The notes beneath the pieces are model-generated. The model did not search any database and was not told the DNA's origin. It saw nothing but the letters and a program-made list of their open reading frames with translations. From contig CACYQQ010000007.1 of the NCBI GenBank assembly GCA_902776605.1, positions 1-33,180 on the forward strand: a stretch of DNA of 33,180 nucleotides. The letters are read 5' to 3'. Source of the stretch: an uncultured Bacteroidales bacterium. Lineage in GTDB: Bacteria > Bacteroidota > Bacteroidia > Bacteroidales > UBA3663. The position numbers were made by a program, and so were the translations under genes. This document shows, piece by piece, positions 8,628 through 19,546 of the stretch (the first letter of the stretch is position 1; every line of letters starts with the position of its first letter).

Positions 8628-8755
8628 GATATTGTACCATTTAGACCGCAAAAATGGCCATATTTGGATATAAATCACCGAAAAATGAGAAGATATTGTA
8701 CTATTTAGGCCACAGCTTAAAACATTATTCTTTTGAGGTCACACCTTAAAACATT
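8628..8755. promoter_or_regulatory. Paired direct repeats upstream of the GH43 promoter
   Basis: Two different direct-repeat pairs lie 35-160 bp upstream of the GH43 promoter. Pair one is GATATTGTACYATTTAGRCC, at 8628-8647 and 8692-8711 (64 bp apart). Pair two is GGYCACASCTTAAAACATT, at 8708-8726 and 8737-8755 (29 bp apart). The arrangement suggests operator sites for an activator, for example a sensor of arabinan fragments. No such regulator is visible in the window. Confidence 0.45.
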
Positions 8756-9481
8756 TCGACCTGTACGGTTAAAAGAACAACGCAAAATAATAATTTATTT
8801 TTGAACACGAAAAAAGCGAATTTTATCTTAATTAGACCTTTGAAACGCGGTTTTTTCGATTTTCGCAAAAACTACGACTAATTGGTTCCTTGCCAACGGC
8901 CTGTCGGGCACCGTAGGAACCCACTCTTCCCCTTGCCCTGACGCAGTGTCCCTCTGCCCACGGGTTTGCTTCGACCACGACACGCCCAAGTCCCCCTCTT
9001 TGAAAAGAACGAAAAAGAACCAAAAAAGAAAGCAAAAAGAACGGAAAAAGAACGCAACTCCGTTACGACGTTGCTGAATAGACTGTCAACGGTAGGGGAA
9101 GGGAGGGGGACGACGGGAAGAAAAGCCGAGGGAAAAGGGCAACAAAAAAGGGTCATTTTAGGGTAAAAATGAGTAAAAAAAATGCAAAAAAAGGAACAAA
9201 AAGTAGTAGAAAAAAGTCAAGAAGATGAAACTTTTCTTACTTTTGCGTACTTTTAGCATAAATGAAACGACGTTGTCCAAAAAATGTACAAAAACGAAAC
9301 AAATCAGCGATTAAACCACCTATAGGATGGGTGCTGTTTTGCGTCACAGATGGACAAAACAAGCCTATTATATTGATTGTCAATATTTTGCAAAATTACA
9401 AGCTCAAAGGTGGAAAATCTTCCTTTTTGCAAACTCTACATACGAAAAATCACTTAAAAGTGTAAATTTTGCATCAAAACA
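8756..9481. other. Gene-poor region with a purine-rich decamer-like repeat
   Basis: I see no convincing gene here. The short ORFs on both strands are low-complexity and lack promoters with both boxes. The stretch 9003-9058 is a run of degenerate AAAAAGAACN units, and the plus strand stays purine-rich to about 9230. A possible hairpin pairs GGTTCC (8884-8889) with GGAACC about 25 bases further on. An isolated TACTTTTG (9238-9245) has no matching -33 box. Confidence 0.4.
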
Positions 9482-9513
9482 TTTGGAGGTTTCAAAAAAT
9501 GGCCGTATCTTTG
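9482..9513 (+). promoter_or_regulatory. Strong orphan promoter
   Basis: TTTG (9482-9485), a 20-nt spacer and TATCTTTG (9506-9513). The -33 side is extended (TTTGGAGGTTTC then an A-run), as in the promoters at 11064 and 20389. No large gene follows, only the short ORF at 9567 and a terminator at 9899. Confidence 0.7.
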
Positions 9514-9566
9514 CACCGTCAAACAACAAGAAAACGTTTGGCTTACTGCAAAAGAAGAGCCTTCTA

Positions 9567-9671
9567 ATGCAGCGCCAAACGAAGGGTTTGACCTCGAAAG
9601 AAAAGCTTCTTCAGCTTTGGGGTTCGGACAAGGATCCAACCTACCTTGATTTGGAAATACTACTTAGTTAA
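9567..9671 (+). CDS. Possible small protein, 34 residues
   Basis: An ATG about 47 nt downstream of the predicted start of the 9482-9513 promoter opens a 34-codon frame. It is the first sizeable ATG-initiated frame on that transcript. The product begins MQRQTKGLTSKEKLLQLW and ends YLDLEILLS. It has a basic N-terminus, an amphipathic middle and an acidic C-terminal half, with no signal peptide or membrane segment. I do not recognise the family. The composition looks protein-like rather than like low-complexity noise. A second ATG frame (32 codons, 9710-9808) follows but looks less convincing. The RNA itself could instead be the functional product. Confidence 0.35.
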   Translation: MQRQTKGLTSKEKLLQLWGSDKDPTYLDLEILLS

Positions 9672-9898
9672 AAGAAATGAAACATTTGCTGAAGGCGGTC
9701 TGAACTACGATGTACATTGACTTTTGCGAAAAGTACCGGTGTACAACACGAAGAGAACAACAGACGTACATAATCGGGATGTACATAGTGGTTCAGATTT
9801 ATTATTAAGATTCATAAAAGGTAATTGAATATATTTCATTTTGGGCATTAGCAGTTTTACTGCAAAGGTTTGGATTGTTGAGAAAATGTATTTTTGTT

Positions 9899-9938
9899 AG
9901 ATATCCAGCGGCGATTGCCCCTGGATATCTGCTTTTTT
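9899..9938 (+). terminator. Intrinsic terminator closing the orphan transcript
   Basis: AGATATCCAG (9899-9908) pairs perfectly with CTGGATATCT (9921-9930), with further GGC/GCC pairing inside, and is followed by GCTTTTTTGG. With the promoter at 9482 it bounds a transcript of about 415 nt. Confidence 0.8.
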
Positions 9939-10001
9939 GGTAGAATCATCGCTACAATTTTATCTAAAAAAGGCACTTTGCCGACGAAACACAGAGAAAG
10001 A

Positions 10002-10033
10002 TTTGGCAATTCGGCAAAAATGATGTATCTTTG
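10002..10033 (+). promoter_or_regulatory. Promoter of the LytTR membrane regulator gene
   Basis: TTTG (10002-10005), 20 nt and TATCTTTG (10026-10033). The inferred start is near 10040, about 50 nt before the ATG at 10089. Confidence 0.75.
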
Positions 10034-10088
10034 CCATCCGTGACAGGCGTGCATTAGGACACACACTTTTAGAACCTGATTGAACAAG

Positions 10089-10988
10089 ATGTTTAGGGAT
10101 AGACTAATCAGTTCACTAATAGGAAGCTTATTTTTCCTCTTTTTCCAGCCCTTCGGCTTGAGCCAGATGGGAGACATACGATGGGTGTTGCTCATCGGCA
10201 TGAGTTTGGCTGTCTCCGGCGTGAGCATCGTCTCCGAATTGATCATACGTTACGTTTTCCGTCTGCCCCACAGCGTCAGCCGCGGGCAACGTTACATGAA
10301 TAAACGCAATCGCTATTTCCAACTCGTCAACATCCCGCTCTTGACATTGTCCATTGCGCTGATGCTGGACCAGTGGGGGTGCCGCGAGGGCATCGACAAC
10401 CACTTTTCGTGGAGCAGCGTTCTTCAGGTCTTCTGCACGATATGCTGTTGTTCGTTCGTCATCGGCCTCTACTGGAGCAACTATTACAGCCGCAAGAACT
10501 ACGAGCGCCAACTGGAGGATGCCATGTACCTGAACGGTATTCTGGAGGAACGTCAGCGCTCCTTCCACGAGTCGCCGAACCCCAAAGTGAAGATCAGCCC
10601 GTGCGGTTGCCCTATCCTGGAGGAGAACGACGACCCCATCCACATCGAGGGTGCCACCAAGGAGTCGCTCGACTTGCGCCCTTCGGACCTGATCTACGCC
10701 GAATCGGACGCCAACTACGTCAAGATATATTATTGTAAGGAGGGCACACCCGTCGAAGTGTCGCTGCGTTGTAGCATCTCGCAGATAGAAGAAACTTTCC
10801 GCAACAGCTACAACATCATCCGTTGCCACCGTGCCTATGTAGTCAACTTGGCAAAGGTCACGCAATTCAACACGCAGGATCACTCCTTGCGACTCTCCCT
10901 CCGCGGCGTGAACAGCCGTATCACTGTCTCGAAAACCTATCTGCAAATTGTCAAGGAGCGAATTATCAATCCGCCAAAAATAGGATAA
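10089..10988 (+). CDS. Membrane-anchored LytTR-family DNA-binding regulator
   Basis: A 299-residue protein; ATG 10089 is preferred over an in-frame TTG three codons earlier. The N-terminal half carries four hydrophobic segments (about 8-24, 32-53, 77-94 and 109-131). A short helical linker (135-160) follows, then a C-terminal LytTR domain (about 184-292) with hallmark segments LIYAESDANYVKIYY and IIRCHRAYVVNLAKV. LytTR domains bind promoter DNA. There is no receiver domain, so it is not a classical response regulator. It resembles Bacteroidota regulators in which a membrane module probably senses or tethers. No sensor kinase lies beside it. Its nearest possible targets are the gene-poor flanks and the GH43 gene at 11705, but that link is only positional. 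Confidence 0.82.
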   Translation: MFRDRLISSLIGSLFFLFFQPFGLSQMGDIRWVLLIGMSLAVSGVSIVSELIIRYVFRLPHSVSRGQRYMNKRNRYFQLVNIPLLTLSIALMLDQWGCREGIDNHFSWSSVLQVFCTICCCSFVIGLYWSNYYSRKNYERQLEDAMYLNGILEERQRSFHESPNPKVKISPCGCPILEENDDPIHIEGATKESLDLRPSDLIYAESDANYVKIYYCKEGTPVEVSLRCSISQIEETFRNSYNIIRCHRAYVVNLAKVTQFNTQDHSLRLSLRGVNSRITVSKTYLQIVKERIINPPKIG

Positions 10989-11063
10989 AATTAGCAAAAA
11001 GTAAGATTTTCCACCCACCTTTTCGGGGAATCCGTCCCTCAAAGCGGACGTTCGTACCAGAAA

Positions 11064-11095
11064 TTTGGAGGGGTCGAAAAAAGGCCTTACCTTTG
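11064..11095 (+). promoter_or_regulatory. Orphan promoter with no ORF behind it
   Basis: TTTG (11064-11067), 20 nt and TACCTTTG (11088-11095), with the same extended TTTGGAGG and A-run spacer as the promoter at 9482. The next real gene starts 600 bp further on and has its own promoter. The only early ORF is 13 codons (MHTLLTLACEGGG, from 11167). Confidence 0.65.
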
Positions 11096-11272
11096 CAATC
11101 GAGAAATATACACGTCACATTCGTATATAATATATACCCAGAGTGAATTGATTTGTTTTTTTATATGCATACACTGTTAACCCTCGCCTGTGAAGGTGGG
11201 GGCTAATGCTTTTAAAGAAAAAAGAGAGGCCAAACCACAAGACCCCCTCCCGTATTCCCCTCGGCTAAAGCC

Positions 11273-11335
11273 TAACCGTTAACCCATAACCCTTAAACAT
11301 TAAACGTTAGACCCTAAACCTTAACCCTTAAACAA
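11273..11335. repeat. 7-bp tandem repeat, nine copies (TAAMCNT)
   Basis: Nine consecutive heptamers close to TAACCCT or TAAACCT fill 11273-11335. Positions 11283-11303 are identical over 21 bases to 28370-28390 in a second array inside the dcw cluster. Confidence 0.8.
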
Positions 11336-11353
11336 CCAGCCGCCCTTCTCCGT

Positions 11354-11440
11354 AGGCCAAGGTTTTGCCTTGGCCATTACCGCTCGTCAGTTCTTGAAGG
11401 ACCAACCAAGCGTGGTTGGGACTTCACTGCGTGGTTGGTC
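11354..11440. other. Two consecutive perfect hairpins in the gene-poor region
   Basis: GGCCAAGG/CCTTGGCC (loop TTTTG, about 11354-11374) is followed by CCAACCA/TGGTTGG (loop AGCG, 11402-11419), with a further TGGTTGGT copy at about 11432. Neither is followed by a T-run, so they are structured DNA or RNA rather than clear terminators. They could be the 3' part of a transcript from 11064. Nothing else is seen in 10989-11599. Confidence 0.4.
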
Positions 11441-11599
11441 TTTCCCCGCCCCAGCCCAACCATGCGCTGTCATGCTCTTACTCGGCACGCCACTTTCCTG
11501 CCCCGTTTTACCCTTGTCCGGTTGTCCTGTGTCACACACGCTAAACCGCGAGAAATCCACCCAGTGCATCAAAATTATAGCTATTTGTAACAACAGCGC

Positions 11600-11630
11600 T
11601 TGGTCTTTTTAAATAAATGTAGTACCTTTG
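11600..11630 (+). promoter_or_regulatory. Promoter of the double-GH43 gene
   Basis: TTG (11600-11602), 20 nt and TACCTTTG (11623-11630). This leaves a leader of about 68 nt before ATG 11705. Confidence 0.7.
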
Positions 11631-11704
11631 CCCGCGGAAAATTTAAGTACATTTCCTGAATCTATCCACAACAAAGAAAAAAGTAACAATCTAATCATCA
11701 CAGT

Positions 11705-14700
11705 ATGAAAAAATCACATTTGGCATGGATGGGACTGTTGGCATGCAGCTTGAACACGGTGCAGGCACAGGACCCAATCATTCAGACACGTTTTACGGCG
11801 GACCCGGCCCCTATGGTATGGAACGACACCGTCTATCTCTACGTCACACACGACGAGGAATATGCCCGAGGATATAACTTCGAGATGAAGGACTGGTTGC
11901 TCTACACCTCGACCGACATGGTGAACTGGAAAGAGTATGGTGCCGTCGCCTCGCTGCAAGACTTCACGTGGCGCAGTCGTGACAATGGCGCTTGGGCCAT
12001 GCACGTTGTGGCGAGAAATGGCAAGTTCTATATGTACTGCCCGCTGCACGGACACGGCATCGGTGTGTTGGTAGCCGACTCGCCTTACGGTCCATTCAAG
12101 GACCCGATTGGCAAACCGATTGTCTGGCAACCCGAACATTGGGACGACATCGACCCCACCGTCTGGATTGACGATGACGGCCAAGCCTATATGTATTGGG
12201 GCAACCCTTATACCTATTGCATCAAGTTGAACGAAGATATGATCTCGACCCAGGGCGACATCTATGTGCTTAACCCTCAGGACGGTGTGATGCGTCCAGT
12301 CAAAGAGGAGGGCGCAAAGATCAACCTCAAGGTGCCGAACGAAGAGAAAGCCAACTGGGCGGTACAGCACTATCAGGAGGGTCCTTGGTTGTGGAGTCAC
12401 CGAGTGGGTTGGCAGAAGAAATGGTACATGGCCTATGCCTCAACGTGTTGTCCAGAGGCCATCGGTTATGCCATGGCAGACAGTCCGATGGGTCCGTGGA
12501 AGGGGACCGACTACATCATGGCACCCACACCACGCACCCGTGGCAATCACCCGGGCATCATCGAATATCGCGGACATCACTACTGCTTCGGCTTGAACTA
12601 TGACATCTTGCGCCGCGAGACGAAGGAACATTCCGAGCGCCGAAGTGTGTCGGCAGCCGAGATGAAATACAAAGCCGACGGCACCATCGAGGAATTACCC
12701 TACTTCCTGGACTGCCCTGCCATTACCCCGTTGGAACACCTCAACCCCTATAAGTTACAGACCGCTACGACGATGGCCAACTCGTGGGGCGTGAAGTCGG
12801 CCTATCATGACGGCAAGTATCACCACGGAGTCTATCTTACTCAGATTCATGACGGAGATGCTGTCTTGGTACGCAGTGTCGATTTCGGCAGCAAGGTCGA
12901 GGGACAGCGTATCGAAGCACGTGTGGCAGCTACCGAAGCCGGTGGAAAGATTGTGGTTCGCATCGACAACCGTGAGGGACAGGTGATTGCCACCCTCGAT
13001 GTACCGTCAACCGGCGGTGCCGAACAATGGCAAACGATTCAGGGTCAGGTCAATAAGGTGCGCGGCATCCATGACCTCTACTTCACCTTCGAAGGACCGA
13101 AGGGTCGCGAACTCTTCAACTTCGACACCTGGCAGTTCCAGAATCAGTCGGGACTGGTGCAAGTGAACAACCCTTGGCTCTGGAGCGACGTACCCGATCC
13201 GGATATTATCCGCGTGGGCGAATACTACTACTTGGTATCGACCACCATGCACCTCATGCCAGGTGCTCCTATCATGCGAAGTCGTGACCTGGTGAACTGG
13301 GAGACAGTCTCTTACCTCTTCGACAAGATTGACGACACCCCTCGCTACGACCTGCACGAAGGTACGGTCTATGGTCGTGGCCAATGGGCTACTTCGATTC
13401 GCTATCACGAGTTCAAGTCGGGTCCGATGAAAGGCAAGAAACTGTTCTTCGCCCTCTTCTCGTCGAACGACGACCCGCACAAGTCTTGGCTCTACAAGAC
13501 CACCGACCCCGCCAAGGGTTGGACGTTGGTGGCACGTCTGCCACACTACCACGATGCATCGCTTTTCTTTGATGACGACGACCGTTGCTACGTCTATCAC
13601 AATGGTGGACAGGTACGATTGGCACGTCTGTCGGAGGACCTGACACAGGCCGACCCGACGTGGGAAATCAAGTTGCTCAACACCCGCGAATTGATGCCCG
13701 AGGGTCTGTTGGAGGGTTCTCGCGCCTTCAAACATGACGGTTGGTACTACCTCTCGATGATCTCGTGGCCACGGTCGGGTCGTCAGCAACTGGCTTTCCG
13801 CAGTCGTAACATCGAAGGTCCTTACGAGATGAAGGTGATCCTGAAGTCGAAGTTCGGCGGATGGAACTTTGTGGGCCAAGGCACTATCGTCGATGGCAAG
13901 GACGGAGAATGGTATGGCGTCATCTTCCAAGACCGCGATGGCGTGGGTCGTGTGCTTACGTTGAGTCCGTGTGAATGGGTGGACGGTTGGCCAATGATTG
14001 GTGAACTGCAACCCGATGGCAGTCGCATCGTACCGCAGTCGATGATGTTGAACAGCGAACCTGCCCCCAAGAAGGGTAAGAACAACGTGATGGCATCGAA
14101 CCTTACGCAAGGCGGTTACATCTCGATTGTACACAGCGATGAGTTTGACAAGACTTCAACCCTAAACACGAAAGTGCCCCTCTGGCAATGGAACCACAAC
14201 CCAATCGCCTCGGCCTGGAGTTTGAAGGAACGTCCCGGTTACCTACGACTGAAGACGAACGAGGTTTCGCAAAGCATCTACTTGGCTCACAACACGTTGA
14301 CGCAACGCATGGAGGGTCCGACTTGCGCCGGAGCGGTCAGCATCGACTTCTCGCACATGCAAGACGGTGACCGTGCTGGATTGGCTGCTCTCAATGGTCA
14401 TTCGGGTATTCTCACCATCGAACGCGAGGGCGGCAAGACGTCGTTGGTACTCTCGTACGAGGAGGTGACCCTCTCGCCTAAGGAGAAGGCGGTGACCGAC
14501 GTAAAGCGAGAAGAGAAAGCGCGAATTGACCTATCTGGCAAAAATACCATTGCTCTTCGCATAACGGGCGACTTCCGTCCTGGCAAGAACGACAATGCTA
14601 CTTTCTGGTACAGCCTGGACAACGGCACCACGTGGCAACAAATAGGTGGAAATTTCCGCATGCGCTTCGACTTCCAGAAGTTCTTCATGGGCACCAAGTT

Positions 14701-14773
14701 CGGCATCTTCAACTACTGCACCAAACAGGCTGGTGGATATGTCGATGTGGATTGGTTCCGATACGAAAGATAA
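11705..14773 (+). CDS. Secreted double GH43 glycosidase with CBM6-like and ConA-like domains
   Basis: A 1022-residue protein with a signal peptide (1-21, cut near VQA-QD). GH43 domain one (about 25-345) shows Asp33 (TADPAP), Asp150 (DDIDPTVW) and Glu225 (YQEGPWLW) in the positions of base, modulator and acid. A CBM6-like beta-sandwich (about 347-480) ends FNFDTWQFQ. GH43 domain two (about 484-785) starts WSDVPDPDIIRVGEYYYL and has Asp498, Asp617 (HDASLFFDDD) and Glu670 (LLEGSRAF). A C-terminal concanavalin-A-like beta-xylosidase domain (about 808-1022) ends GYVDVDWFRYER. Both active sites look intact, so it is probably bifunctional. The second half resembles beta-xylosidases and the first arabinofuranosidase-like enzymes, so arabinoxylan side-chain and xylooligosaccharide removal is the likely role. 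Localisation is probably periplasmic or surface. The gene stands alone, with no SusC/SusD pair beside it. Confidence 0.88.
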   Translation: MKKSHLAWMGLLACSLNTVQAQDPIIQTRFTADPAPMVWNDTVYLYVTHDEEYARGYNFEMKDWLLYTSTDMVNWKEYGAVASLQDFTWRSRDNGAWAMHVVARNGKFYMYCPLHGHGIGVLVADSPYGPFKDPIGKPIVWQPEHWDDIDPTVWIDDDGQAYMYWGNPYTYCIKLNEDMISTQGDIYVLNPQDGVMRPVKEEGAKINLKVPNEEKANWAVQHYQEGPWLWSHRVGWQKKWYMAYASTCCPEAIGYAMADSPMGPWKGTDYIMAPTPRTRGNHPGIIEYRGHHYCFGLNYDILRRETKEHSERRSVSAAEMKYKADGTIEELPYFLDCPAITPLEHLNPYKLQTATTMANSWGVKSAYHDGKYHHGVYLTQIHDGDAVLVRSVDFGSKVEGQRIEARVAATEAGGKIVVRIDNREGQVIATLDVPSTGGAEQWQTIQGQVNKVRGIHDLYFTFEGPKGRELFNFDTWQFQNQSGLVQVNNPWLWSDVPDPDIIRVGEYYYLVSTTMHLMPGAPIMRSRDLVNWETVSYLFDKIDDTPRYDLHEGTVYGRGQWATSIRYHEFKSGPMKGKKLFFALFSSNDDPHKSWLYKTTDPAKGWTLVARLPHYHDASLFFDDDDRCYVYHNGGQVRLARLSEDLTQADPTWEIKLLNTRELMPEGLLEGSRAFKHDGWYYLSMISWPRSGRQQLAFRSRNIEGPYEMKVILKSKFGGWNFVGQGTIVDGKDGEWYGVIFQDRDGVGRVLTLSPCEWVDGWPMIGELQPDGSRIVPQSMMLNSEPAPKKGKNNVMASNLTQGGYISIVHSDEFDKTSTLNTKVPLWQWNHNPIASAWSLKERPGYLRLKTNEVSQSIYLAHNTLTQRMEGPTCAGAVSIDFSHMQDGDRAGLAALNGHSGILTIEREGGKTSLVLSYEEVTLSPKEKAVTDVKREEKARIDLSGKNTIALRITGDFRPGKNDNATFWYSLDNGTTWQQIGGNFRMRFDFQKFFMGTKFGIFNYCTKQAGGYVDVDWFRYER

Positions 14774-14780
14774 AAATATA

Positions 14781-14818
14781 ATTCACGGGAGCAAGTGTTA
14801 CAACTTGCTCCCGTGAAT
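14781..14818. terminator. Perfect 16-bp hairpin after the double-GH43 gene
   Basis: ATTCACGGGAGCAAGT (14781-14796) pairs with 14803-14818 around a 6-base loop, 8 bases after the stop codon. No T-run follows on the plus strand; a T-rich run follows on the minus strand. It may act in both directions between these convergent genes. Confidence 0.65.
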
Positions 14819-15104
14819 GGAGTTAAGGGGAGTAAAAAGAAGTTATCGCTTTGCTCAAGGAGTTAACGGACGTTACTAAAGAGAAGTAAAATTGTTTCAG
14901 AAACAAAAACAAACGTCTGTTAACTCCCCGTTAACTCCCATTAACTACAAGAATGGAGTTAAGGGGAGTTAAAAGGAGTTTTCACTTCGCTCAAGGAGTT
15001 AACGGACATTACTACTATAAGTCTAAAGGCCAATCGACAGTTAAAAACAAACGTCCGTTAACTCCCGTTACCTCCCATTAACTCCATGAAATTAACTCCC
15101 TTTC
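14817..15104. repeat. Tandem pair of decamer-based hairpin repeats
   Basis: Two similar units begin at 14817 and 14953 (136 bp apart). Each has a left arm of decamers near GGAGTTAANN, including CGCTTTGCTC or CACTTCGCTC, and ends in GGAGTTAACGGAC(G/A)TTACT. A central loop of 40 bases or so follows, then a right arm with AACGTCYGTTAACTCC and further TTAACTCCC decamers. The arms are inverted complements, for example 14859-14874 with 14912-14927 and 14995-15010 with 15050-15065, so each unit can fold into a long hairpin. There is no ORF. This covers most of the 406-bp gap between convergent genes. Confidence 0.75.
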
Positions 15105-15118
15105 GTACTAGCGAAAAT

Positions 15119-15150
15119 AAGCCGCCCGAAGTCATTTCTTCGGGCGGCTT
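15119..15150 (-). terminator. Terminator of the MetY-type gene
   Basis: A perfect 13-bp stem (15119-15131 with 15138-15150, loop TCATTT) lies 29 bases beyond the stop on the minus strand and is followed there by ATTTTCG. Confidence 0.8.
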
Positions 15151-15179
15151 TGAAAATATAATAACGAAACGCAATCAAT

Positions 15180-16469
15180 TTAGGCCTTATCCAACGCCTG
15201 GCTGATGTCGGCAAGGATGTCGTCAATATGCTCGACACCCACGCTGAGGCGGATGGTGGTTGGGGTGATATGTTGTTGAGCCAACTCCTCAGGTGAGCAC
15301 TGACTGTGGGTCGTGGTAGCAGGGTGGATAACGAGTGACTTGACATCGGCCACGTTGGCAAGCAACGAGAAGAGTTTCAGCGCGTCGATGAATGCCCAAG
15401 CATTCTCCTGCGTACCCTTGATCTCGAAGGTGAAGATGGAACCTGCACCCTTTGGGAAATACTGCTGATAAAGAGCATGGTCGGGGTGTGATGGAAGAGA
15501 TGGATGGCTGACACTCTGTACTTTAGGATGCTTGGCAAGGAAGTCGGCAACCTTCAAGGCATTCTCGACGTGACGCTCAATGCGGAGTGGCAAAGACTCG
15601 ACGCCCTGCAATAGAATCCAGGCATTGAAGGGCGAAATGGTAGCACCTGTGTCACGAAGGATGACGGCACGGATGCGGGTTACGAAAGCAGCGGCACCTG
15701 CTACATCGGCAAAGACGGCACCGTGGTACGAAGGGTCTGGTTTGGCCAACGAAGGATACTTTTCGGCATTGGCCTTGAAGTCGAACTTACCGGCATCGAC
15801 AATGACGCCGCCCAAGCTGGAACCGTGTCCACCGATGAATTTGGTAGCCGAGTGAACAACGACGTCTGCGCCGTGCTCGATGGGACGGAAGACGATAGGA
15901 GCGAAAGTGTTATCGACAATGAGGAGGGTGTTGTGCTTGTGCGCAATCTCGGCCAACTTGTCGATGTTGATGACGTCGGAATTAGGGTTGCCGAAGGTCT
16001 CGACATAAAGCGCCTTGGTGTTGGGACGGAAAGCAGCCTCGACAGCAGCAAAGTCCTTGGGACTGACAATAGTATAATCGACACCCTGGGTGCTCAACGT
16101 GTGGGTAATGAGGTTGTAACTACCACCATAGAGGTTGTCGGCAGCAATGATATGGTCACCGTTGCGGGCAATGTTCTGCAAAGCATAAGTAACGGCAGCA
16201 GCACCAGAGGCAACAGCCAAAGCGGCAACACCACCTTCGAGGGCAGCAACGCGCTCCTCAAAGACACCCTGCGTCGTATTGGTGAGTCGGCCATAGATAT
16301 TGCCGGCATCGCGAAGACCGAAACGGTCGGCAGCGTGCTGCGCATTGTGGAAGACGTAAGAGGCTGTCTGATAAATAGGTACAGCACGGGAATCGGTGGT
16401 TGGGTCGGCTGTTTCCTGACCTACATGAAGTGCTAAAGTCTCTAAATGAAGTTTGTTTTCGTTTGCCAT
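15180..16469 (-). CDS. metY: O-acetylhomoserine sulfhydrylase-type PLP enzyme
   Basis: A 429-residue member of the Cys/Met-metabolism PLP family (fold type I). The length fits O-acetylhomoserine aminocarboxypropyltransferase (MetY), which is longer than MetB or MetC at about 380-400. Visible landmarks are TLALHVGQE at the N-terminus, Tyr59/Arg61 (IYGRLTN, phosphate contact), a Gly/Ala-rich segment at 86-92, Asp186 (IVDNTFAP, pyridine nitrogen) and Lys210 (HSATKFIGGHG, Schiff base). It would make homocysteine from O-acetylhomoserine and sulfide in the cytoplasm, or cysteine from O-acetylserine in some relatives. It diverges from an Lrp/AsnC regulator gene 178 bp away, which may control it. MetB/MetZ-type activity cannot be excluded from sequence alone. 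Confidence 0.88.
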   Translation of the reverse strand: MANENKLHLETLALHVGQETADPTTDSRAVPIYQTASYVFHNAQHAADRFGLRDAGNIYGRLTNTTQGVFEERVAALEGGVAALAVASGAAAVTYALQNIARNGDHIIAADNLYGGSYNLITHTLSTQGVDYTIVSPKDFAAVEAAFRPNTKALYVETFGNPNSDVINIDKLAEIAHKHNTLLIVDNTFAPIVFRPIEHGADVVVHSATKFIGGHGSSLGGVIVDAGKFDFKANAEKYPSLAKPDPSYHGAVFADVAGAAAFVTRIRAVILRDTGATISPFNAWILLQGVESLPLRIERHVENALKVADFLAKHPKVQSVSHPSLPSHPDHALYQQYFPKGAGSIFTFEIKGTQENAWAFIDALKLFSLLANVADVKSLVIHPATTTHSQCSPEELAQQHITPTTIRLSVGVEHIDDILADISQALDKA

Positions 16470-16542
16470 AATCGTATTGTTTTAAATTAGATAATTACTT
16501 AAAATTGATAATTGGAACTCGCACTTTAGCGGATTCGCAAGG

Positions 16543-16575
16543 CAAAGGTATAGCAAGAATAGAATAAAACGCAAA
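16543..16575 (-). promoter_or_regulatory. Probable promoter of the MetY-type gene
   Basis: On the minus strand TTTG (16572-16575), a slightly long 21-nt spacer and TACCTTTG (16543-16550), 74 bases before the start codon. Confidence 0.55.
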
Positions 16576-16604
16576 CAATTGGACAGAATATTAGAAAATG
16601 TTTC

Positions 16605-16612
16605 TATATTTG
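16605..16612 (+). promoter_or_regulatory. -7 box of the lrp-type gene
   Basis: TATATTTG lies 35 bases before ATG 16648. No good TTTG stands at the expected distance; the nearest is TTG at 16579-16581. Use may depend on an activator or autoregulation. Confidence 0.5.
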
Positions 16613-16647
16613 CCGAGGAAAGTAGATAAATAATTCACTCAATCGGT

Positions 16648-17139
16648 ATGGAAAGTAAAAAAACAAATGACAGAATCATCGAGAATCTTGACCCAGTGGA
16701 TATTGCCTTGTTGCGTGCCTTGCAACAAGATGCACGTTTGACGACCAAGGAACTGGCGCAACGTGTGAACCTAAGTTCGACGCCTGTGTATGAGCGCGTC
16801 AGACGACTGGAACGAGAAGGTTACATCAAACGCTACGTCACGGTGTTGGATGCCGAAAAGTTGCACCAAGGCTTCGTCGTCTTTTGCAGTGTCAAGTTGT
16901 CGCCCATCAACAAGAAAGTGGCAGAGGAGTTCCGCGAAGCCATCTTCGACATTCCGGAAGTGACGGAATGCTACAACATCTCGGGTCACTACGACTACCT
17001 GCTCAAAGTGCACTCCCCCAGCATGAAGTACTATCAGGAGTTCGTTCTCAACGTATTGGGCCAACTGCCCATGCTCGGTTCGTTGGAAAGCACTTTCGTC
17101 ATGGAAGAGGTCAAACACCAGTTCGGCGTGGTCATCTGA
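16648..17139 (+). CDS. Lrp/AsnC family transcriptional regulator
   Basis: A 163-residue protein of typical family length. The N-terminal winged helix-turn-helix (about 14-65) reads DPVDIALLRALQQDARLTT, then KELAQRVNLSSTPVYERVRRL as the recognition unit, then EGYIKRY. The C-terminal RAM (ligand and oligomerisation) domain spans about 72-160 and contains the GHYDYLLKV core strand, where amino acids bind in relatives. Such proteins form octamers that respond to amino acids. The divergent position beside a methionine/cysteine-forming enzyme makes that gene the most likely target, with autoregulation also common. The effector is unknown. Confidence 0.9.
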   Translation: MESKKTNDRIIENLDPVDIALLRALQQDARLTTKELAQRVNLSSTPVYERVRRLEREGYIKRYVTVLDAEKLHQGFVVFCSVKLSPINKKVAEEFREAIFDIPEVTECYNISGHYDYLLKVHSPSMKYYQEFVLNVLGQLPMLGSLESTFVMEEVKHQFGVVI

Positions 17140-17150
17140 AAAAGCCATCG

Positions 17151-17278
17151 TAATCCACACAAGTTATCAACATTGGACGTGGATAACCCCCTCCAAAGCG
17201 AGTTATACAGGCTTTTCAACAAGTTATAAACAATAATCCACAAGTTGTCAACCGACACTTGTGGATTATTGTTTATAA
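17151..17278. other. Cluster of DnaA-box-like 9-mers (candidate origin or DnaA-binding locus)
   Basis: Within 128 bp I count several near-matches to the DnaA box TTATCCACA, each with one mismatch: TAATCCACA at 17151 and 17234, its complement at 17260, TTATCAACA at 17164 and the complement of TTATCCACG at 17178. Related forms are TTTTCAACA at 17213, TTATAAACA at 17224 and its complement at 17270. Weaker ones lie at 17203 and 17245. Several share the leading CAAG or AAG spacing typical of origin arrays. An AT-rich, ORF-free stretch (about 17280-17420) follows, which could be an unwinding element. No copy is a perfect 9/9, and no dnaA or dnaN gene is in the window. Confidence 0.5.
17224..17278. 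repeat. 22-bp perfect inverted repeat with 11-base loop
   Basis: 17224-17245 pairs perfectly with 17257-17278. Each arm carries a TTATAAACA and a TAATCCACA 9-mer, so the palindrome is made of DnaA-box-like words. It could also end the lrp-type transcript, but the stem is AT-rich and no T-run follows. Confidence 0.7.
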
Positions 17279-17393
17279 TTACTTAACTGAAACAACTAAA
17301 GCGCAATATACATTCTGAAACTTAATCAAGATGCTCCAAAATTGGCAAGAAAAGAGATAATCCAACATATAATAAAAATAATTGGGAGAAAAT

Positions 17394-17424
17394 TTCAGCA
17401 TATCAAAAATAATACATAAATTTG
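17394..17424 (+). promoter_or_regulatory. Promoter of the endonuclease gene
   Basis: TTTC (17394-17397), 19 nt and TAAATTTG (17417-17424), 33 bases before ATG 17458. The -33 box is off consensus by one base. Confidence 0.55.
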
Positions 17425-17457
17425 CAGCCCGTTTTCACTTTTTTAATGGAATAGTCA

Positions 17458-19086
17458 ATGAAAAAGATCCAAAGGCTGTATTCGTTGTTCTTATTGTTCG
17501 CCTTGTCCCTGAGCGTTTTCGCTCAAGGACCTAACAACACAGGAACCTACTACAGCAACGCTGACGGAAAGAAAGGTGCAGCATTGAAGACCGCCCTTTA
17601 CAACATCATCAAGAGCCCGAACGTCGTATCGTACAGCGGACTTATCAGTGCCTATGAGCAGACCGACACCCGTCCTGACGGATACGTCCGTGACTGGTAT
17701 TCGAACATCACCAACTACCGCCACGGCAAAGATACGGGCGGATACAAGAAAGAGGGTGACAGCTACAACCGCGAGCATTCCGTGCCCCAGAGTTGGTTCA
17801 ATGAAGCTTCGCCGATGAAGTCCGACATCGTGCACGTCGTACCCACCGATGGTTACGTCAACAACCGCCGAAGCAGTTACCCGTTGGCCGAAGTAGGAAG
17901 TGTGACTTGGCAATCGGCCAACGGCTATTGCAAACTGGGTTCGTGCAAGACGCCAGGTTACACGGGCACGGTGTTTGAACCCAACGACGAAATCAAGGGT
18001 GACATGGCACGCATCTATTTCTATATGGTCACCTGCTACGAAGATCGGGCAACAAGTTGGGGACATGTCTTTTCGAACAACAAGGCCAAAGGATTTGATG
18101 ATTGGTACGTCGCCATGCTTTTGCGTTGGTCGAACGAAGACCCTATTGACGAGGTAGAATTGGCCCGCAACGAAGCGGTCTATCGCGTACAGGGAAACCG
18201 CAATCCCTACGTCGATTACCCCCATCTGGAGGACTACATCTTCGGCAGCAAGAAAGAGGAAGCTTTCAGTTATGACAACTATGTGAACGGAGGCGGCGAT
18301 GTTCCCGGAACGGTGGCCCAACCTATCTTCACGCCCCAAGAGGGACAATATATAGATGAGGTGACGGTCTCCCTGACCACTTCGACCGCTGGAGCAACTA
18401 TCTACTACACGTTGGATGGCTCGGATGCCACCACCGCCAGCACGGTCTATGAGGAACCCTTCAAACTCACGGAGACTACGACCGTGCATGCCATTGCCGT
18501 GAAAGACGGACTCTGGAGCAACCCATCGACCGTTACTTACACCATCGTGAAGGGAGGCGACCTGATTGAACCCAACGAGGTACTGATTGCTCTGAACAAT
18601 ACCTTCTTCGACTGCAACTTCTCGGGTTCCATCCCATCCACATACACGGATGATTTGACAGCCACCCAAGAGGGCGTCACTGTCGTCTATGCTTTGGGCA
18701 ACGGTGGGTCGAACCGTTTCTGCAACAATGAGCACATCCGCATCTACCCACGGAACACGTTGACCATCCAATCGAGCATCGGAGCCATGACCAAGTTGAC
18801 GTTTGAACTGGACGAAAACACCTCCAAGGTTCTCACTCCTTCGGTTGGTGAGATGGAAGACTTCACTTGGACCGGTTTTTCGGAAAGCGTGGAGTTCCAC
18901 TACTCGGGTTCCAGCGGTCACATCCGTCTGGCCAAAGTTAAAGCAGAAATAGGTATCACGGACGGCATCGAGGAACTGACTACCGAGCCAACCAAAGATG
19001 CCATGTGGTCGCTATCAGGCCAACGTATTTCTACTCCCCGTTCGGGCCTCTATATCCGCAACGGCAAGAAATATATGGTGAAGTAA
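17458..19086 (+). CDS. Secreted endonuclease I with chitobiase-type C-terminal domain
   Basis: A 542-residue protein with a signal peptide (1-22, FAQ-GP). Residues about 26-265 match the endonuclease I (EndA/Vvn) His-Me-finger family: SYNREHSVPQSWF holds the general base His107 beside Glu106. FEPNDEIKGDMAR (about 173-185) holds the Asn of the metal site. These enzymes cut DNA and RNA without sequence preference. Residues about 288-363 form a CHB_HEX_C-like beta-sandwich (TPQEGQY, TIYYTLDGS, HAIAVKDG). A beta-rich region of unknown type spans 370-500, and the end (504-542) is a WSLSGQRIS...GLYIRNGKKYMVK tail as on many secreted Prevotella proteins. A role in extracellular DNA degradation for nutrients or biofilm turnover is likely. 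It stands alone, with its own promoter and terminator. Confidence 0.88.
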   Translation: MKKIQRLYSLFLLFALSLSVFAQGPNNTGTYYSNADGKKGAALKTALYNIIKSPNVVSYSGLISAYEQTDTRPDGYVRDWYSNITNYRHGKDTGGYKKEGDSYNREHSVPQSWFNEASPMKSDIVHVVPTDGYVNNRRSSYPLAEVGSVTWQSANGYCKLGSCKTPGYTGTVFEPNDEIKGDMARIYFYMVTCYEDRATSWGHVFSNNKAKGFDDWYVAMLLRWSNEDPIDEVELARNEAVYRVQGNRNPYVDYPHLEDYIFGSKKEEAFSYDNYVNGGGDVPGTVAQPIFTPQEGQYIDEVTVSLTTSTAGATIYYTLDGSDATTASTVYEEPFKLTETTTVHAIAVKDGLWSNPSTVTYTIVKGGDLIEPNEVLIALNNTFFDCNFSGSIPSTYTDDLTATQEGVTVVYALGNGGSNRFCNNEHIRIYPRNTLTIQSSIGAMTKLTFELDENTSKVLTPSVGEMEDFTWTGFSESVEFHYSGSSGHIRLAKVKAEIGITDGIEELTTEPTKDAMWSLSGQRISTPRSGLYIRNGKKYMVK

Positions 19087-19096
19087 CGCAAATAAA

Positions 19097-19127
19097 AAAG
19101 GCAGCCCAAACGGGTTGCCTTTATTTT
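19097..19127 (+). terminator. Terminator of the endonuclease gene
   Basis: An 11-bp stem with one G-U pair (19097-19107 with 19112-19122, loop AAAC) is followed by ATTTTG, 10 bases after the stop. Confidence 0.85.
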
Positions 19128-19154
19128 GTGATAGGGCACACATATAAACAAAAG

Positions 19155-19178
19155 AAGATAGCCGAAATCGGCTATCTT
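19155..19178. terminator. Hairpin beside the partial tRNA copy
   Basis: AAGATAGCCG (19155-19164) pairs with 19169-19178 around AAAT. On the minus strand it sits just past the duplicated tRNA 3' end, in the same relation as the terminator of the intact tRNA. Confidence 0.5.
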
Positions 19179-19185
19179 TCAAGGA

Positions 19186-19204
19186 GCGGAGAGAACGGGA
19201 TTCG
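19186..19204 (-). repeat. 19-bp duplicate of the tRNA-Ser 3' end
   Basis: Bases 19186-19204 are identical to 19298-19316, which hold the acceptor 3' strand and part of the T-arm of the intact tRNA-Ser. The sequence upstream (19205-19267) does not fold as a tRNA by eye. It is either a decayed tRNA copy or an attachment-site-like scar. Confidence 0.7.
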
Positions 19205-19267
19205 CTCCGAGCTCTGCTCGCGTGACCAAAGGGAACAACCCACGGGTGAGAAAACCGTTCAGCATAG

Positions 19268-19294
19268 AAATAGCCTGCTTGCGGCAGGCTATTT
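19268..19294 (-). terminator. Terminator of tRNA-Ser
   Basis: An 11-bp stem (19268-19278 with 19284-19294, loop 19279-19283) begins 5 bases past the tRNA 3' end on the minus strand. The T-run on the plus side suggests it may also work in the other direction. Confidence 0.6.
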
Positions 19295-19298
19295 TTTG

Positions 19299-19386
19299 CG
19301 GAGAGAACGGGATTCGAACCCGTGATACCCTTTGGAGGTATACACGCTTTCCAGGCGTGCCTCTTCAACCACTCGAGCATCTCTCC
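19299..19386 (-). tRNA. tRNA-Ser (anticodon GGA)
   Basis: An 88-base cloverleaf. The acceptor stem is GGAGAGA/TCTCTCC with discriminator G. The D-arm is of the class II type. The anticodon stem is CACGC/GCGTG with loop CTGGAAA, giving anticodon GGA (19350-19352) that reads UCC and UCU. A long variable arm (GGTATACC-like pairing) typical of serine tRNAs and a T-loop GGTTCGAATCC follow. The terminal CCA is not encoded. Confidence 0.95.
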
Positions 19387-19437
19387 AAAGGAGGTATGAG
19401 AACCTCCCGATAAGTATATAAGCAATTTTTTCGGGTG

Positions 19438-19468
19438 CAAATATAATCAATTATTTTTACATTTCAAA
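19438..19468 (-). promoter_or_regulatory. Promoter of tRNA-Ser
   Basis: On the minus strand TTTG (19465-19468), 19 nt and TATATTTG (19438-19445), a full consensus match. The first transcribed bases (GCACCCGAAAAA) are identical to those of the divergent promoter at 19516. Confidence 0.75.
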
Positions 19469-19515
19469 GAAAAGAGAGAAAAAATAAAAAAAGATAGAAT
19501 AATTCTCCAAATAGC

Positions 19516-19546
19516 TTGCTGGGAACGGCAGAAAGTAGTATATTTG
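19516..19546 (+). promoter_or_regulatory. Promoter of the ComEA-like gene
   Basis: TTG (19516-19518), 20 nt and TATATTTG (19539-19546). It overlaps an in-frame TTG codon, so the gene must start downstream, at ATG 19570. Confidence 0.75.

Follow-up and report, generated by a model that had tools for sequence, protein, structure and literature searches.

A cluster of DnaA-type boxes downstream of lrp in an uncultured Prevotella-like genome shares its layout with other loci of the same genome

The region between an Lrp/AsnC-family regulator gene and a secreted endonuclease I family gene in an uncultured Bacteroidales bacterium carries a cluster of DnaA-type boxes, which raises the question of whether replication starts at this site or whether the boxes play another role. 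The window, i.e. the whole stretch of 33,180 nucleotides analysed here, corresponds to contig C7 (33 kb) of a gut-type metagenome-assembled genome (MAG) of 2.87 Mb in 280 contigs that is 80% complete, and was compared with a Prevotella-like group of 15 genomes including its own. According to gene annotation, the cluster is located between lrp (16648-17139, plus strand) and the endonuclease gene (17458-19086, plus strand), with a tRNA-Ser, an HHH-domain gene and the dcw cluster from mraW to murG found rightward of the latter. The genes on that side had been described as all lying on the plus strand, which mostly holds (dcw genes mraW to murG) but not for tRNA-Ser (19298-19386, minus strand), this tRNA being the sole match of an Rfam search of the window. 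The order in congeners is gh43, tRNA-Ser, HHH and mraW, and when compared to these the window displays an inserted block (8678-19516) that carries the GHx, cgs, lrp and endonuclease genes next to tRNA-Ser. In congener G009, an AbiEii-like gene is found near this tRNA.

The cluster of DnaA-type boxes after lrp is real. Inside 128 bp, five 9-mers differ from TTATCCACA at no more than one position (17151, 17164 and 17234 on the plus strand, 17178 and 17260 on the minus strand), and three others differ at two positions (17213 and 17224, plus; 17270, minus). When TTGTCAACC (17245) and GTTATACAG (17202) are included, ten boxes are obtained, in line with the ca. eight to ten of the initial annotation, whose description of a dense packing in which no box is perfect is borne out, with no exact TTATCCACA between 17151 and 17278. 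At the genome-wide rate of one-mismatch boxes (581 per 2.87 Mb), 0.026 would be expected per 128 bp, so that the chance of finding at least five is ca. 1e-10 per site and ca. 2e-6 such stretches are expected in the whole genome. The first of these boxes, TAATCCACA (17151-17159, plus strand), is located just past lrp. The reported perfect 22-bp palindrome was also recovered, with a left arm at 17224-17245 (TTATAAACAATAATCCACAAGT, plus strand) and a right arm at 17257-17278 (minus strand) separated by 11 nt; the single-strand DNA fold has a z of -7.4.

Other arrays were sought in 1.08 Mb (38%) of the same genome, a sample composed of 46 contigs taken by number (C1-C6 and C8-C47), with the first 20 kb of most longer ones, and of ca. 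15 contigs added for their perfect TTATCCACA, which biases it partly toward boxes. Arrays were scored by summing 3, 2 or 1 for boxes with 0, 1 or 2 mismatches in 150 bp, a looser scan for GTTATNNACA arrays having been set aside as too permissive. Six loci scored at least 8, namely C79 (17), the window, C26 and C119 (13 each), and C5 and C3 (8 each), while nothing scored above 6 in a Markov control and with four permuted 9-mers. The arrays are located at 7229-7329 in C119, 944-1083 in C26 and 5119-5271 in C79, with two perfect boxes in C119 and one each in C26 and C3. Many equal clusters across the genome had been named beforehand as an outcome that would speak against an origin, and this is what was found, C119, C26 and C79 scoring as high as the window or higher and C3 and C5 scoring lower yet well above the control. 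The C79 array consists of 12-bp DnaA-box-like units in frame within prmC/hemK (L219, G000:C79, 4560-5663), where it results in an insert of ca. 45-55 aa with VDNP/VDKG repeats that separates the N-terminal part from the methyltransferase motif. More generally, recurring array units in this genome include AAAAGAACGGA, GGGTATCGATT and GGAGTTAACA, and arrays with inverted partners are ten times commoner than in a control. Degenerate tandem arrays, often with inverted partners, also occur in the window itself, for example at 9003-9057, 11273-11333 and 14919-15085.

Beyond box density, several of these loci have the same layout. This was first seen by eye in C119, C26 and C3, in which GTTGATAAC is followed at 12 bp by a second box, then by a spacer of 23 nt and an inverted pair with 5 nt in between. 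A geometry scan that combined 31 spacer lengths with 16 gap lengths (496 classes) over the 1.08 Mb then placed exactly four loci in the class with a 23-nt spacer and a 5-nt gap (23/5), these being the minus strand of the window (17254-17160), C119, C26 and C3; the 24/5 class contains C106 and a weak site on the C5 contig. Several loci with equally spaced and oriented boxes, a trait of DARS-type sites, are thus found here, four of them for 23/5 and a fifth for 24/5, and it is the geometry scan that favours a fixed element over a plain degenerate repeat. The common layout consists of a box, 11 or 12 bp, a second box, exactly 23 nt, and an inverted pair with a 5-nt gap. In the window copy (17160-17254, minus strand), box 1 (GTTTATAAC, 17223-17231, minus) overlaps the left palindrome arm and box 2 (GTTGAAAAG, 17212-17220, minus) is degenerate, the distance from one to the other being 11 bp here and 12 bp in the other copies; the second upstream box thus stands at 34 in the window and at 35 in C119, C26 and C3. 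The spacer (17189-17211) is equally long in C119, C26 and C3, with a sequence that is 45% identical on average. It is followed by box 3 (GGTTATCCACG, 17178-17188, minus), a gap (17173-17177) of equal length in C119, C26, C3 and C106, and box 4 (TGTTGATAACT, plus strand AGTTATCAACA, 17162-17172, minus), relative to which box 3 is inverted. The 22-bp inverted repeat of the window was seen in none of the other copies. Mean pairwise identity among copies is 0.59-0.89 in the boxes, 0.45 in the spacer and 0.33 in the gap, the box figures being inflated because loci were picked by box density, which leaves spacer and gap lengths unaffected.

A profile derived from C119, C26 and C3 only, with the window left out, matched the window copy with an E-value of 1.5e-5, a cluster in G009 with 3.5e-8, C106 with 0.004 and C79 with 0.006, the best value in a reversed-sequence control being 0.14. 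After one iteration the window copy reached 59 bits, a figure that is not independent since the window was by then part of the model. The full geometry had no match in 444 kb of 13 congeners, of which G009 is the single one with a related sequence, in the form of a partial copy. In 785 kb of G148, a complete genome of an order-level relative, no 23/5 locus was found and only scattered singletons of other classes occurred. Extrapolation from the sample gives ca. 10 copies of the element per genome. Plasmid and phage records, each collection queried with one element, contained no similar DNA. In viral contigs (L250-L427), and among the matches listed, inverted AGTTATNCACA/TGTGNATAACT pairs favour a gap of 15, which is the largest scanned, and also show gaps of 14, 6 and 3; gaps of 15, 6 and 3 being commoner than 5 in these matches, the 5-nt gap does not appear to be a generic habit of such boxes.

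The dnaA gene is missing from the MAG, which is 80% complete, and was found in 11 congeners. Their dnaA upstream regions (L108-L117) display a conserved inverted pair, AGTTATCAACA / TGTTGATAACTT, that is likely an autoregulatory site. Box 4 of the window copy is identical to the box found there, as TGTTGATAACT is invariant in eight aligned congener sequences, and an inverted AGTTATCAACA-type partner was found in nearly all congeners checked. In the own-genome sample, AGTTATCAACA was observed 6 times for 0.5 expected, and together with AGTTATCCACA it is 10- to 25-fold over-represented, mostly inside the elements. Binding of DnaA to the element is plausible because this same box is found as an inverted pair upstream of dnaA, and the standard domain IV signature RDHATVL is kept in congener DnaA. 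From these sequences, DnaA appears to be the likeliest ligand of the element boxes. Of the proposed "origin or DnaA-binding locus", the DnaA-binding half is thus plausible, given the box AGTTATCAACA / TGTTGATAACT kept upstream of dnaA and the standard domain IV, while the origin half is not supported.

Were the locus a true oriC, DnaA would bind the clustered boxes and unwind the AT-rich stretch to their right, and a cluster of DnaA boxes is indeed present, in an intergenic position, at high density, next to AT-rich DNA and with the dcw genes reading away from it. Moreover, a box cluster is also present near the HHH gene and mraW in G009, the nearest congener, and the predicted oriC of P. intermedia lies apart from dnaA (PMC4755523). 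An oriC is unique in the chromosome, however, and comparable clusters were found in C119, C26 and C79, with lower-scoring ones in C3 and C5; those of C119 and C26 equal that of the window and include perfect boxes. Cumulative GC skew, which is local here as the MAG is split into 280 contigs, does not reach a minimum at 17.2 kb of the 33-kb contig. Nor is the position conserved in close relatives, since a cluster was missing from the DNA that follows lrp in 12 congeners and from that preceding HHH/mraW in G002, G004, G008, G012, G001 and G010, and the only nearby cluster, that of G009, sits at a different spot, between tRNA-Ser and HHH. The occurrence of clusters within ca. 2.5 kb of HHH in both sister species is suggestive but not strong, as arrays occur every 200-300 kb and 13 loci were inspected. 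In G148, skew is mostly negative and noisy up to 2.575 Mb, where it turns, while mraW is at 2.427 Mb; with the turn ca. 150 kb or more from dcw, the latter was rejected as an origin marker. Synteny with lrp was likewise discarded as a sign of a conserved origin, since the DNA downstream of lrp is unrelated in the 12 congeners and at ca. 30 wider lrp loci. In another Prevotella-type MAG (L029, 7592-7726), an origin-like cluster with two perfect boxes and AT-rich DNA was detected, with an ABC ATPase gene on one side and an EEP-rhomboid gene pair on the other; its occurrence 3.2 kb from lrp is close to chance expectation for that much sequence, and the EEP/rhomboid gene was dropped as an origin marker because no clusters occur beside distant EEP relatives in the genus. 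Since the same spacing recurs in no fewer than four to five copies around the genome, the locus is probably a DnaA-binding or repeat locus rather than a replication start, and we consider an oriC at this place unlikely. A dense cluster of DnaA boxes is therefore insufficient to call an origin in Prevotella-like MAGs, this genome having several with the same layout.

The AT-rich stretch that had been proposed to flank the boxes is present (17279-17440, plus strand, 72% AT) but contains a Bacteroidota-type TAnnTTTG promoter motif at 17417; this motif and matches at several places in congeners indicate that the stretch probably serves, at least in part, as promoter for the endonuclease gene. It is very unlikely that the palindrome forms a hairpin in RNA where lrp ends, so as to terminate transcription or stabilise the mRNA, or that it serves the endonuclease gene as an operator, with an incidental match to boxes: the perfect 22-bp stem located 85 nt past the lrp stop codon folds strongly, yet it is followed by no T-run, no terminator was called there, and the rest of the cluster and the geometry common to unrelated loci would be left unexplained. 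A possibility to which we give limited weight is that of a non-functional interspersed repeat, spread by copying and slippage, for which the likeness to DnaA boxes would be a by-product of one repeat family. Arrays with a period of 7-15 bp reach 29 per 100 kb in this genome, for 0.3 in the Markov control and 3.2 in G148, belong to many recurring unit families and are ca. 80% intergenic; the C26 array and the G009 cluster are 85% identical over 54 bp at unrelated loci. This repeat background and the box array in frame within prmC keep the repeat interpretation alive. It accounts less well for a unit that is the 11-mer conserved upstream of dnaA, for spacer lengths of 23 and 5 kept exactly when the spacer sequence is not, and for the fact that the other families are simple tandem arrays with no fixed multi-box layout.

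Based on the own-genome sample and the congeners, the multi-copy status, the fixed geometry, the higher conservation of boxes than of spacers and the match of the box to the dnaA upstream region give what we regard as an even chance that the cluster represents a copy of a dispersed DnaA-box element of fixed geometry, working away from the origin like DARS/datA or the DnaA-box clusters (DBCs) of B. subtilis. DnaA would bind the element as an oligomer set by box geometry, and the elements would act by titrating DnaA or by altering its nucleotide state, like DARS/datA in E. coli or the DBCs in B. subtilis. Against such a role, the C79 array located in frame inside prmC has more the look of an expanded repeat than of a control site, a core control site would be genus-wide whereas G009 is the sole congener with a related sequence, itself partial, and the spacers retain some common sequence, so that recent copying could have produced the shared geometry without selection.

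Comparison with known systems places this dispersed element close to several of them. In E. coli, DARS1 and DARS2 share three identically spaced core boxes, of which box I is opposite to II and III (PMC5742627), and the element resembles them in occurring at several loci outside oriC with a small, identically spaced core that includes one opposite box. It differs from them in having four boxes at 11/12, 23 and 5 nt, in at least five copies instead of two, in belonging to a different phylum and in being known from sequence alone; we do not assign it to DARS, as its position appears unconserved in relatives (no full copy in 444 kb of 13 congeners). Like datA of E. coli it is an intergenic cluster of DnaA boxes away from oriC, but datA is a single locus with a required IHF site and the element is multi-copy. 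Six DBCs outside oriC, thought to bind free DnaA, are described in B. subtilis (PMC5295017), about half a dozen as here, although the descriptions in the part of that source considered here include no shared fixed geometry such as that of the element. The likeness to a bacterial oriC, for example that predicted in P. intermedia, is restricted to clustered boxes that adjoin AT-rich DNA, the locus being neither unique in the genome nor supported by skew, and its AT-rich part having a promoter motif. Finally, PINSR is also a multi-copy repeat of Prevotella-type genomes; its description, in the part of the source considered, is that of a 188-bp consensus without terminal inverted repeats restricted to the P. 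intermedia/nigrescens group (PMC4755523), which sets it apart from the element, whose copies diverge strongly outside the boxes.

Only tentatively can it be proposed from these sequence comparisons that a Bacteroidota lineage carries ca. ten extra-origin elements of fixed geometry that would be bound by DnaA and would control initiation or local genes. If true, these would be multi-copy DnaA-control sites forming a DARS/datA-like layer, and in the open-licence literature no report was found of such a layer for Bacteroidota or of comparable DnaA sites in Bacteroides-type bacteria. The fixed 23/5 geometry provides a ready pattern for search and test; in IMG/VR, it was found exactly once, at 264-318 of an inovirus-like contig (L249).
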